The notes below the pieces were generated by a model that was given only the letters and a program-made list of their open reading frames with translations, had not been told where the DNA came from and searched no databases. DNA of 64,000 nt from Ferruginibacter sp. (GTDB taxonomy: Bacteria; Bacteroidota; Bacteroidia; Chitinophagales; Chitinophagaceae): assembly GCA_019638575.1 (NCBI GenBank), contig JAHBTN010000001.1, forward strand, positions 248,001 to 312,000, read 5' to 3'. This document shows, piece by piece, positions 5,123 through 28,379 of the stretch. Position numbers and translations under genes: made by a program. The stretch's first letter is position 1; each line of letters opens with the position of its first letter.

Positions 5123-5545
5123 TTAAAAATCGTCGTCGTCGTCATCATCAAAATTCTCGCCATCGTCAAAACCTAAACCAAAATCTTCATCTCCTTTAAA
5201 ATCATCATCATCATCATCGTCTTTTCCTTTTCTGCCTTTTTTTGAAGGTGATCTTTTACCGCCTTTGGGAATATCAAACTCATCAAAATCGGGGTCCCAG
5301 TCATCATCTTCATCTACTTTATCCCAATCATCCTCCATATCATCATCATCGTCGTCGTCATCATCATCCCTGCCCTTTTTCTTTGGGGTTGATTTTTTCT
5401 TTGGCATAGGTTCATCATCAAAGTCATCATCATCGTCATCATCATCTTTACTTTTACGTTTTGCAGGTTTTTTTGCAGCCATAAGCACTTCAGTAAATCC
5501 TGCTGTTACAGTTTCGGTTGTAATACTTTCAGATGTTAATATCAT
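5123..5545 (-). CDS. Poly-aspartate/lysine low-complexity protein
   Basis: A 140-residue protein made almost wholly of Asp runs (7-10 long) alternating with basic linkers such as KKPAKRKSK, PKKKSTPKKKGR and KGGKRSPSKKGRKGK, with a few aromatic DDWD/DFDEFD patches. There is no signal peptide or membrane segment, so it is probably a cytoplasmic, intrinsically disordered polyampholyte. The first 21 residues are ordinary in composition; an alternative start is ATG at 5482 (MAAKKPAKRK). It lies between pabB (30 bp) and purA (80 bp) on the same strand. Similar acidic-repeat proteins are, to my memory, common near this point in Chitinophagaceae. Function unknown. GAT/GAC repeats make it prone to length change. 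Confidence 0.75.
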   Translation of the reverse strand: MILTSESITTETVTAGFTEVLMAAKKPAKRKSKDDDDDDDDFDDEPMPKKKSTPKKKGRDDDDDDDDDDMEDDWDKVDEDDDWDPDFDEFDIPKGGKRSPSKKGRKGKDDDDDDDFKGDEDFGLGFDDGENFDDDDDDDF

Positions 5546-24920: not shown

Positions 24921-27900
24921 TTATACCACTACATTTATCATTTTGTTTTTTACAAAGATGATTTTCTTTGGAAGCTTACCATCGAGCCATTTTTTAACAA
25001 TATCATTTTCGAGTATCATTTCCTCTACTTGTTTTTGTTCAAGATTAAGTGATAACTCAATATTAGTACGAAGTTTACCATTTACAGAAACAGGGTAGTC
25101 TTTTGTACTCTCAACCAATAATGCCGGGTTAAAGGTTGGATAATTGGCATCAAGGACAGAACCTTTATTGCCCAATTGGTGCCACAACTCTTCACTGATA
25201 TGCGGTGCATACGGTGCAAGCAAAATAAGCAGTTGTTCAATAACCACTTTTTTACTGCACTTTAAATCAGCAAGTTCATTTACACATATCATAAATGTAC
25301 TTACTGCCGTATTAAACGAAAAGCGTTCTGTATCTTCTTCAATTTTTTTTATGGTGCGATGTAAAACTTTTAATTCTGTATCGGTTGCTTTCTCATCCGT
25401 CCAAATTTTACCTTTTACTTCATCAAATAACAGCCTCCACAGTTTTCTTAAAAAACGATGAACACCTTCAATACCCTTGGTATCCCAGGGCTTGCTTGCT
25501 TCTACCGGGCCCAGGAACATTTCATACATGCGGAAAGTATCGGCACCATATTTATCACACAATTCATCCGGGTTTACGGTATTGAATTTTGATTTTGACA
25601 TTTTTTCTGTTTCAACTCCACAGATATATTTGCCATCTTCTAAAATAAATTCAGCATTTGCATATTCACCATTTCTCCATTTTTTAAATTCTTCTATATC
25701 TAATTCTACTCCATCAACAATGTTTACATCAACATGTAAAGGAGAGGGTTGTGAAATTTTAAATTCACTTAATGAAGTATTTTTAAAAATTTCATCATAC
25801 TCTGCTTGGATCAGCTTTTTTGTTTCTGGTAAATGAAAATTGTCATAATGGAATTTTGAAAGGAAGGGCAACTTTTTCCAAAGTAATTTTTCATCAAAGT
25901 TTAACTTAGATTCAGTAAAAGGAATTTCAACATTAAGCCTATACACAAACCTGCTACTTCCCTGTATCATTCCTTGGTTCAATAATTTTTTATATGGTTC
26001 ATCAAAACCAATCAATCCTAAATCAAACAAAACTTTTGTCCACATACGGCTGTACAGTAAATGCCCAACAGCATGCTCGGTACCGCCAATGTACAGGTCA
26101 ACCTGGTTCCAGTAATCGCTTGCTTTGCGGTCGCAAAAAGTTTTATCATTGTGCGGATCCATGTAGCGCAAAAAATACCAACTGCTTCCTGCATAGCCGG
26201 GCATGGTAGATGTTTCTCTTCTGACCTCTCCCCCCGCCCTCTCCAGAGGAGAGGGAGTCAAACCTTCTGATTTTAATGACTCATATTTTGAACTTTCACT
26301 CTCCTGAGGAGAGGGAGCCAAACCCTCATTTTCTAAAGCAGGTTGTTTTTCTAATTCTGAATTAATATTTGTTTCCGTTTTCAATTCTTCTTTTTCTAAT
26401 ACCTTCTTATTTAGTAATGCTTGTTCAATGCTTTTTAAAACATTTTTCACACTATTTTTTACTTCATCATTTGTAAACCTTATCATTGTAAAGCCACACT
26501 CTGCAAGCCAGGCTTCTCTACCAGCATCATATATTTTCTGTTCCTCCTTATTATGATACCCACCATCAATCTCAACAATTAACTTTTTTTCAAGACATAC
26601 AAAGTCGGGGATATATCCTGCAATCGGATGTTGCCTTCTGAATTTAAAACCTCCAATTTTCCTGTTTCTTAATTTCTGCCAGATAATATTCTCTTCGATT
26701 GTTGGCTCTTTTCTATTTTGCTTTGCAAAGCCAATTGTTTTTTTCCATTCTGCAATTGTACTGTTATAATACCCGGGAGCTTTTGTCCCCCTCTCATTAG
26801 GAGAGGGGTTAGGGGAGAGGTCAACCCAATCTGTTAGATTTGCCAATGGGCCTTCGCCATTAGGCCCGGGGCTGTATTTATCTACATGCGGTAACTCAAG
26901 CGGCAATTCGCTTGCATCTATAGGATTGGCAATACCATCGCTCCAGGTTATGGGGAAAGGCTCGCCCCAATAACGTTGCCTGCTAAAGCCTGCATCACGC
27001 ATGCGGTAATTCACTTTGCGTTTTCCAATACCCAGTTCTTCAACTTTATTAATTGCTACTGCCATGGCATCTTTCATTATCATACCATTTAAAAAATCTG
27101 AGTTTTGTAAAACAGCATCTTTTGTTGCATTAGCTTCCTGGCCATTAAAATGTGAACCAATGATATTGGTTATTGGAATTTTAAAATGATTGGCGAATGC
27201 AAAGTCACGCTGATCGCCGCAAGGCACAGCCATAATGGTGCCTGTTCCATATCCAGCTAAAACATATTCCGCTATCCAAATTGGTATTTCTTTGCCATCA
27301 AAAGGATTTATTGCATAAGCGCCTGTAAAACATCCTGTGATTATTTTTGCTTCGGCAAGACGCTCTCTTTCGCTACGGCTTTTTACATACGCTAAATATT
27401 TTTCTACTTCAGCTTTTTGATTTGCTGTTGTTATATTTAAAACAATTTCATGTTCGGGGGCAATCACCATAAAGTCAACACCAAAAATGGTATCGGGCCT
27501 TGTGGTATATACATTTAATTTGCTGTCCGAATTTTTAATATTGAATTCAATTTCTGCTCCTTCGCTTTTACCAATCCAGTTACGTTGCATTTCTTTCATG
27601 CTATCGCTAAAATCTACTGTTTCCAGGCCTTGCAACAGCCTGTTGGCATAAGCAGTAATACGTAAAAACCACTGGCGCATTTTTTTTCTTTCAACCGGGT
27701 GGCCGCCACGTTCGCTAACACCATTCACTACTTCATCATTGGCAAGTACGGTTCCTAAGGCTTCGCACCAGTTAACTTCGCCATAAGCGCTAAAAGCCAG
27801 CCGGCGGTTCATCAATATGTCTTCCTGCTCTTTTTTAGTAAAAGCATTCCATTGATCAGCAGTAAAATTTTTACAGCCTTTTGTTTCATACTTTTTCACC

Positions 27901-28379
27901 AAATCGGCAATTGGCCTTGCTTTTTGCTGAGTGTTGCAAAAATAACTATTGTACAACTGCAGGAAAATCCATTGTGTCCATTTATAATATTGGGGGTCGC
28001 TGGTACGCAGTTCCCGATCCCAGTCGTAACAAAATCCTATTTTATCAAGCTGAGCTTTAAAAGTTGTGATATTTTTTTCGGTTGTGGTAGCCGGGTGCTG
28101 CCCTGTTTCCAGTGCATATTGTTCGGCAGGCAAACCAAAACTATCAAAGCCCATTGGGTGCAACACATTAAACCCCTTCAATCTTTTATACCTACTGTAA
28201 ATATCGCTTGCTATGTATCCCAACGGGTGGCCCACATGCAGGCCTGCACCGCTTGGATAAGGAAACATATCCAATACATAGTATTTGGGTTTGCCCGAAT
28301 TGTTTGAAACCCGGTAAACTTTATTTTCCCGCCAATAGTCCTGCCATTTTTTTTCTATTTCATTAAACTTGTATTCCAT
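24921..28379 (-). CDS. leuS: Leucyl-tRNA synthetase with an in-frame DUF559 endonuclease insert
   Basis: Attaches leucine to tRNA(Leu) and edits mischarged tRNA. The frame encodes 1152 residues, about 200 more than usual. The HIGH-type motif HVGH is at 48-51, the editing domain follows (VYTTRPDTIFGVDFMVIAPEHE), KMSKS is at 926-930, then the anticodon-binding domain. Residues 520-719 are foreign to the family: a DUF559 domain (EENIIWQKLRNR, PDFVCLEKK, IVEIDGGYHN) flanked by proline/serine-rich repeat-derived peptides (SPNPSPNERG, LTPSPLERAGGEV). The insert sits between WV and RRETSTMPGYAGSSWYF, a surface loop of variable length. The flanks resume exactly in frame, so the host protein minus insert would be 952 residues, normal for the phylum. 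It is not an intein: no splice-junction Cys/Ser or terminal His-Asn is present. The protein is probably translated whole, but that is inference. Confidence 0.93.
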   Translation of the reverse strand: MEYKFNEIEKKWQDYWRENKVYRVSNNSGKPKYYVLDMFPYPSGAGLHVGHPLGYIASDIYSRYKRLKGFNVLHPMGFDSFGLPAEQYALETGQHPATTTEKNITTFKAQLDKIGFCYDWDRELRTSDPQYYKWTQWIFLQLYNSYFCNTQQKARPIADLVKKYETKGCKNFTADQWNAFTKKEQEDILMNRRLAFSAYGEVNWCEALGTVLANDEVVNGVSERGGHPVERKKMRQWFLRITAYANRLLQGLETVDFSDSMKEMQRNWIGKSEGAEIEFNIKNSDSKLNVYTTRPDTIFGVDFMVIAPEHEIVLNITTANQKAEVEKYLAYVKSRSERERLAEAKIITGCFTGAYAINPFDGKEIPIWIAEYVLAGYGTGTIMAVPCGDQRDFAFANHFKIPITNIIGSHFNGQEANATKDAVLQNSDFLNGMIMKDAMAVAINKVEELGIGKRKVNYRMRDAGFSRQRYWGEPFPITWSDGIANPIDASELPLELPHVDKYSPGPNGEGPLANLTDWVDLSPNPSPNERGTKAPGYYNSTIAEWKKTIGFAKQNRKEPTIEENIIWQKLRNRKIGGFKFRRQHPIAGYIPDFVCLEKKLIVEIDGGYHNKEEQKIYDAGREAWLAECGFTMIRFTNDEVKNSVKNVLKSIEQALLNKKVLEKEELKTETNINSELEKQPALENEGLAPSPQESESSKYESLKSEGLTPSPLERAGGEVRRETSTMPGYAGSSWYFLRYMDPHNDKTFCDRKASDYWNQVDLYIGGTEHAVGHLLYSRMWTKVLFDLGLIGFDEPYKKLLNQGMIQGSSRFVYRLNVEIPFTESKLNFDEKLLWKKLPFLSKFHYDNFHLPETKKLIQAEYDEIFKNTSLSEFKISQPSPLHVDVNIVDGVELDIEEFKKWRNGEYANAEFILEDGKYICGVETEKMSKSKFNTVNPDELCDKYGADTFRMYEMFLGPVEASKPWDTKGIEGVHRFLRKLWRLLFDEVKGKIWTDEKATDTELKVLHRTIKKIEEDTERFSFNTAVSTFMICVNELADLKCSKKVVIEQLLILLAPYAPHISEELWHQLGNKGSVLDANYPTFNPALLVESTKDYPVSVNGKLRTNIELSLNLEQKQVEEMILENDIVKKWLDGKLPKKIIFVKNKMINVVV
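26223..26258. repeat. Left terminal inverted repeat with nested hairpin
   Basis: GACCTCTCCCC is followed by CCG and a perfect hairpin CCCTCTCC-AGA-GGAGAGGG. Its layout matches the other end of the element in reverse complement. Confidence 0.75.
26310..26333. repeat. Internal third copy of the hairpin repeat
   Basis: CTCTCC-TGA-GGAGAG followed by GGAGCCAAACC closely matches the left-end copy, which reads GGAGTCAAACC after its hairpin. It lies about 85 bp inside the left end, in the reading frame region encoding EGLAPSPQES, and suggests repeat duplication within the element. Confidence 0.65.
26786..26822. repeat. Right terminal inverted repeat with nested hairpin
   Basis: CCCCTCTC-ATTAG-GAGAGGGG, then TTA and GGGGAGAGGTC. 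The reverse complement aligns with the left end over about 35 bp with few differences. Confidence 0.75.

Follow-up and report, generated by a model that had tools for sequence, protein, structure and literature searches.

How a nuclease can reside within the reading frame of an aminoacyl-tRNA synthetase, and by what route it came there, is the question raised by the gene leuS for leucyl-tRNA synthetase (LeuRS) in a 64,000-nucleotide stretch of Ferruginibacter sp. DNA (assembly GCA_019638575.1, contig JAHBTN010000001.1, positions 248,001 to 312,000), the whole of which is hereafter called the window. The gene, located at 24921..28379 on the minus strand, is the sole LeuRS gene of the genome and forms a single open frame of 1152 aa, counting a 600-bp in-frame insert (26223..26822, minus strand; ends as drawn in the original prediction, an earlier reading of this DNA) that corresponds to LeuRS residues 520-719. 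The insert is probably a palindrome-flanked, Vsr/EDxHD-like selfish nuclease persisting as an unspliced translated loop; we infer its activity, its homing and the absence of splicing from sequence comparisons. Nuclease genes in essential genes are usually carried by an intron or an intein. The lineage of the insert occurs, as far as sampled, solely inside other genes, apparently a novel mode of life within genes for selfish DNA.

The synthetase gene and its insert

The presence of DUF559 at residues 520-719 of a 1152-residue product, as had been predicted, is borne out by the open frame and by Pfam, in which LeuRS domains are found on both sides of DUF559. The product scores 947 bits with TIGR00396 (cut-off 548), and since no other frame in the genome exceeds this cut-off, the insert-bearing gene should supply the LeuRS of the cell. 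The alignment with the T. thermophilus LeuRS (1h3n) exits at residue 513 (chain 474) and re-enters at 713 (chain 485); because it resumes past the insert, the flanks together make up an ordinary LeuRS, which, along with the TIGR00396 score, agrees with the earlier claim on the flanks. The G+C content of the insert (0.373) is nearly equal to that of the host gene (0.382), so that the insert is not obviously recent foreign DNA. An artefact of assembly or annotation is unlikely, since numerous separate genomes, and named records among them, show the same arrangement.

The insert had also been held to be neither an intein nor a known intron, and the searches give the same picture. No splicing domain was found in the leuS product by Pfam and NCBIfam, the residue following the insert, at the boundary drawn earlier, is R and not C, S or T, and the sole Rfam match over 25800-27300, where group I and II introns were looked for, was SNORD59, with 21.4 bits, far below its cut-off of 45.

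Conservation of the nuclease domain

The DUF559 domain, a Vsr/EDxHD-like nuclease, occupies residues 550-655 (26415..26732, minus strand) and scores 120 bits in Pfam against a cut-off of 20.6; both the profile match and the nuclease fold place it among the DUF559/Vsr-like PD-(D/E)XK nucleases. The structure of the insert, predicted from an alignment of 4 sequences, has a mean predicted local distance difference test score (pLDDT) of 63.9 and is good solely in the domain. The conserved residues of the window copy are E563, W567, Q583, D592, E603, D605 and H609. In a set of 71 inserted copies, 61 of them from the 69-copy clade described below and 10 from outside it, the positions E23, W27, Q43, D52 and H69 (563, 567, 583, 592 and 609 of the window copy) are invariant, while E63 and D65 (603 and 605) are present in 70 of the 71; the 16 free copies placed alongside also retain these residues. 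In the 25 closest pairs of inserted copies, the ratio of nonsynonymous to synonymous divergence (dN/dS) was 0.05-0.25 where dS was finite. By these alignments, the inserted nuclease is under purifying selection, with the putative active-site residues retained, and it is probably active within the fusion, because an open frame alone would not preserve such residues.

Nearly invariant active-site residues and strong purifying selection are equally what a domesticated fusion would display, in which the host took the nuclease into its own service, defence or repair for instance, and profits from its tie to an essential, well expressed enzyme; the persistence of related copies at the same site across genera speaks for it too. 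Such a recruitment is nevertheless quite improbable in view of the patchy presence of the insert on the LeuRS tree, of hosts without an evident common function, of very different copies at one site in congeners and of the palindrome-only loops in other alleles, all described in the sections that follow.

Distribution among genomes and host genes

The occurrence of DUF559 was assessed in a family sample of 195 genomes and a phylum sample of 395 genomes; in the family sample, every listed match having an open frame of at least 250 aa, and nearly all the listed shorter ones, were examined. Among the matches listed, DUF559 is present in at least 95 of the 195 family genomes, and in at least 25 of the 195 it lies within leuS, at two loops. 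Again among the matches listed, 8 family genomes have an insert at site A, where the window copy lies, and 19 at site B, directly before the TTRPDT motif of the editing domain, with both sites being filled in two genomes. The LeuRS frames of loci L067 (G123) and L071 (G013), of 1327 and 1315 aa, contain a DUF559 domain in each loop, which are mutually 59% and 50% different, respectively. The LeuRS loops containing DUF559 total 148-236 aa. A pattern scan of genome contigs with the insert returned three loci, all of them leuS site B, in a Chitinophagaceae metagenome-assembled genome (L033, which shares its contig with L101), an Ignavibacteria metagenome-assembled genome and Haloflavibacter putidus.

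The first set contained 87 DUF559 frames, 71 of them of at least 250 aa (two of the 71, L034 and L035, from outside the family). The hosts, named from NCBIfam and Pfam with one example per host, were LeuRS (30 copies, 28 in the family), IcmF (8), MetH (8), AroC (5), ArgB (5, N-terminal), CinA (4), MetG (2) and adenine deaminase (2). Single copies were found with the Lhr helicase, IspG, HsdR, an Eco57I-type methylase, a Type ISP-like fragment, an M23-like protein (the analyst's label; the NCBIfam match is a hypothetical-protein model) and, N-terminally, a GHMP kinase (labelled ThrB by the analyst), HisA and a nucleotidyltransferase. In the phylum sample, DUF559 occurs at E <= 1e-10 in 163 of the 395 genomes, and among the 29 new loci listed there were 15 long frames, assigned by sequence alone to LeuRS (3), MetH (4), HsdR (3), restriction-modification or related genes (4) and an unknown host (1).

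A tree of 179 DUF559 domains (89 + 61 + 29; 117 columns) was built, in which a copy was called free when its stop-to-stop frame was shorter than 250 aa. Sixty-nine in-gene copies, including 8 from the phylum sample, form one clade with zero free-standing members, and the 91 free copies lie elsewhere; the clade has a Shimodaira-Hasegawa-like approximate likelihood ratio (SH-aLRT) support of 96, and it has a bootstrap of 100 with the same SH-aLRT of 96 in a more careful tree, whose bootstrap had not fully settled. Its named hosts are LeuRS (30), IcmF (8), MetH (8), AroC (5), CinA (4), MetG (2), adenine deaminase (2), Lhr (1) and the M23-like protein (1), whereas 8 further copies within genes, of the IspG, HsdR and restriction-modification types, and 11 other fusions fall outside it. 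The element is thus special neither to LeuRS nor to its loop: the window insert is one copy of a lineage spanning nine named host genes, in which it is likewise read in frame.

As to possible carriers, no relative was found in one scan of viral contigs, and records of phages (27) and plasmids (48) gave nothing beyond matches of less than 60% identity.

Several observations were made aside from the clade. A separate group of DUF559 domains is joined N-terminally to biosynthetic enzymes with no intervening stop codon: to ArgB in L096, L099, L103, L110 and L120, which form one starred group on the element tree, to the GHMP kinase in L118, to the nucleotidyltransferase in L116 and to HisA in L126. 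DUF559 is also located inside restriction-modification genes outside the 69-copy clade, namely HsdR (L065, L174, L177, L182) and Eco57I-like or other genes (L121, L165, L166, L170). In the genome G012, DUF559 occupies site B of both of two different LeuRS genes (L100 and L119); this genome is 72% complete, in 350 contigs, and may be a mixed assembly.

Inverted repeats and palindromes

A perfect terminal inverted repeat had been predicted for the insert and is indeed present, with a length of 12 bp rather than 11: TGACCTCTCCCC, with the arms at 26222..26233 (the 3' end of the element in the leuS sense) and 26812..26823 (the 5' end). Ten perfect 12-bp inverted pairs spaced 400-800 bp, mostly A+T-rich and some of them overlapping, occur in the window, so that the 12-mer by itself is weak evidence. 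Inside the arms are the terminal palindromes CCCTCTCC-AGA-GGAGAGGG (26237..26255), read as peptide within SPLERAGGEV, and CCCTCTC-ATTAG-GAGAGGG (26789..26807), read within PNPSPNERG; the palindrome region of the 3' end (leuS sense) is duplicated in tandem at 26239..26336, as two 38-nt copies, 82% alike and 60 bp apart. A palindrome at each end, together with the recurrence of the arrangement around DUF559 in relatives, is not chance. Flanking inverted repeats were detected for 44 of the 68 copies of the clade, 60 of the 89 free ones, all 8 of the in-gene copies outside the clade and 6 of the 11 other fusions, with shifted controls giving 3/131, 4/61, 2/15 and 1/21, respectively.

In the genome of the window, the sole match to the pattern CCCTCTCCN{1,8}GGAGAGGG is the palindrome at 26237..26255 itself. 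Across the family, the palindrome CCCTCTCC-n-GGAGAGGG is present in 73 of 195 genomes and the reversed pattern in 1 of 195. It is commoner in the genomes with DUF559 among the matches listed (55 of 95) than in those without it (18 of 100; Fisher odds ratio 6.3), an association that ignores kinship and includes the element's own ends in the count.

Palindromes without a nuclease are found in the same LeuRS loops. Several LeuRS alleles that lack a nuclease at the loop concerned have a short palindrome there in frame, at site A in L022, L098, L101 and L148, among others, and at site B in L152, whose site-A loop (QSESSQVSPEGGDLEGA) is similar to the tail of DUF559 elements such as that of L123. 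At a third LeuRS loop, an in-frame palindrome without a nuclease occurs in L149 (G091) and L150 (G167), with a similar peptide in L005, the encoded peptide being APSPLERAGGEV or APSPAERAGGEA in these three. Such palindrome-only loops may be scars or landing pads. As a separate observation, the nuclease-free site B of L007 (G010) and L010 (G181) contains short in-frame tandem repeats, the units of which resemble CATTCAA and GGAAGTT, as though different repeats gathered in this loop.

The abundance of the palindrome (73 genomes against 1 for the reversed pattern), its association with DUF559, the palindrome-only inserts, those of the third loop included, the inverted flanks of the free copies and the failure of Pfam to find an additional DNA-binding domain in the insert would all suit a passive passenger, that is, palindrome cassettes inserted by some other machinery, of which the loop insertions alone survive, with a nuclease acting on palindromes or mismatches without choosing the gene. 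This account appears unlikely, because 44 of the 71 copies have their nearest relative at the same host site in another genome and none of the 71 has it in its own genome, and because free and in-gene copies are separate lineages; 32 of the 71 copies sit in genomes that hold two or more.

Movement, descent and proposed mechanism

The comparison among relatives that the original prediction proposed yielded alleles without the nuclease, ends in inverted orientation and a patchy occurrence, and the pattern seen differs from one in which all relatives are filled at this position, lack repeats and follow vertical descent. On a LeuRS tree of 68 rows, chosen as the insert carriers and their best matches, so that the numbers are change counts and not frequencies, the occupancy of site A requires 7 changes and that of site B 16, close to the values for shuffled labels. 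In the congeneric pairs G133/G044 and G030/G124, the LeuRS proteins are 12-13% different and the site-B elements 54-56% different. Scattered occupancy along with very different copies at one site in congeners makes simple vertical descent a poor fit. The element seems to have spread from genome to genome at preferred sites and to have jumped to another site now and then, a pattern that vertical descent with loss and replacement can mimic in part.

The preferred explanation is that of a selfish element, a DUF559 frame between inverted palindromes resembling repetitive extragenic palindromes (REP), which occupies a variable loop of an essential enzyme without disturbing the reading frame. It would be produced as part of the host protein, stay unspliced and be tolerated by the host enzyme. 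From inside the fusion, the nuclease may act on an allele that lacks the insert or on a loop that holds a palindrome alone, whereupon break repair would copy the cassette in, as with homing endonucleases, and a deletion could leave an in-frame palindrome scar. Residence in essential genes would guard against imprecise deletion, as it does for inteins, with no splicing domain being required.

A number of observations weigh against this explanation. Site-specific homing normally requires an extra DNA-binding domain, and Pfam places no family besides DUF559 in residues 520-719 (E <= 0.001), hence no added domain of this type. The own genome holds no second DUF559 at E <= 0.001 and, by the pattern search, no second exact palindrome; a target-site duplication could not be defined for the insert; and 24 of the 68 clade copies have no flanking inverted repeat at the cut-off used. 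The model of the full-length LeuRS had a mean pLDDT of 36.7 and was discarded. An in-frame Met stands just before or early in the domain in 46 of the 69 clade copies, so that separate translation is possible for those; the window copy has no Met from the 5' end of the insert to residue 632. A startless state is accordingly not supported as a trait of the lineage.

The remaining objections concern descent. The distances of elements and hosts are correlated weakly but above chance for 20 site-B copies (Spearman 0.21, p 0.03), with 0.29 (p 0.13) for 8 site-A copies; copies from one host site tend to fall together on the element tree (29 label changes, as against 61 on average after shuffling), and such clustering would also arise under vertical descent; and at synonymous sites element and host have mostly diverged to a similar degree, near saturation, with no recent transfer visible. 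Recent transfer as judged by synonymous divergence is thus unsupported, and with such near-saturated values old descent and loss may explain part of the pattern. An ancient insertion followed by vertical descent and many losses would account for the similar divergence in most same-site pairs, for the clustering by host site and for the weak correlation. As an explanation of the whole it is highly improbable, since the starred branches of the element tree force the site-A label to change three times or more, the congeneric pairs differ by 54-56% in elements at one site, and the nearest group of the window copy consists of AroC, site-B and Lhr copies, with several of the other site-A copies lying elsewhere.

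A broader claim is put forward tentatively, as a serious possibility that falls somewhat short of an even chance: that of a phylum-wide, homing-type nuclease lineage without splicing or independent life, the members of which would be permanent translated loops in housekeeping enzymes, expressed by the host gene, acting as a fusion (here of LeuRS and a homing endonuclease), spreading by converting insert-free or palindrome-bearing alleles and anchored by essential genes. If this is true, an unspliced lineage in nine named conserved genes across the phylum represents another solution to living in essential genes, and some Bacteroidota LeuRS, methionine synthases and other enzymes are natural enzyme-nuclease fusions. 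The filled, empty and palindrome-only alleles are ready, testable pairs, and the host loops make a list of protein sites into which a folded domain of some 100 residues can seemingly be placed.

Comparison with known systems

Inteins are likewise in-frame elements of housekeeping genes with a nuclease inside; the insert shares the frame, the housekeeping host and the internal nuclease, and it differs in that no splicing domain was found and that R follows it.

The nearest systems are the ShiLan domain in idea, the Rickettsia palindromic elements (RPEs) in form, the EDxHD homing endonucleases in fold and the WHO elements in their splicing-free mode. The ShiLan domain and similar hidden HNH insertions reside in phage DNA methylases (PMC11855218) and resemble the insert in being nuclease-coding insertions that keep the host frame open, with no recognised intein or intron, a homing-like distribution and perhaps a tolerated loop. 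ShiLan is, however, an HNH nuclease read in a frame other than that of its host, between a start and a stop codon that belong to it (PMC11855218), whereas DUF559 is read in the host frame within the host polypeptide, in cellular housekeeping genes and with palindromic ends. RPEs are 105-146 bp long and located in frame inside conserved protein genes, and for one such protein, a guanylate kinase, both production and activity were demonstrated (PMC2229807). The ends of the insert and the palindrome-only loops are alike in form, as palindromic sequences in frame in a conserved gene; unlike them, the insert encodes a conserved nuclease domain, while the passages of PMC2229807 on RPEs name no enzyme in them.

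The insert has the catalytic-domain fold of the EDxHD homing endonuclease I-Bth0305I (structure 3r3p), and a DUF559 gene was assigned to the EDxHD family in an intein survey (PMC9403480). I-Bth0305I is described in PMC3943268 as a long multi-domain dimer with a target of nearly 60 bp, whereas the insert shows the catalytic domain alone and no intron. The WHO elements and the HO endonuclease of yeasts exemplify homing into a metabolic gene without protein splicing, but WHO integration replaces the 3' end of FBA1 (PMC7282813), and the nuclease of the insert lies within the host chain. As these sources describe them, neither ShiLan, the RPEs, the EDxHD homing endonucleases nor the WHO elements are in-frame, unspliced, enzyme-coding inserts, and among the titles and abstract openings listed by full-text searches of open-licence papers there was no report of DUF559 inside LeuRS or other housekeeping genes.

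Elsewhere in the window, two short tandem repeats with ATC-rich units are located at 5327-5446.
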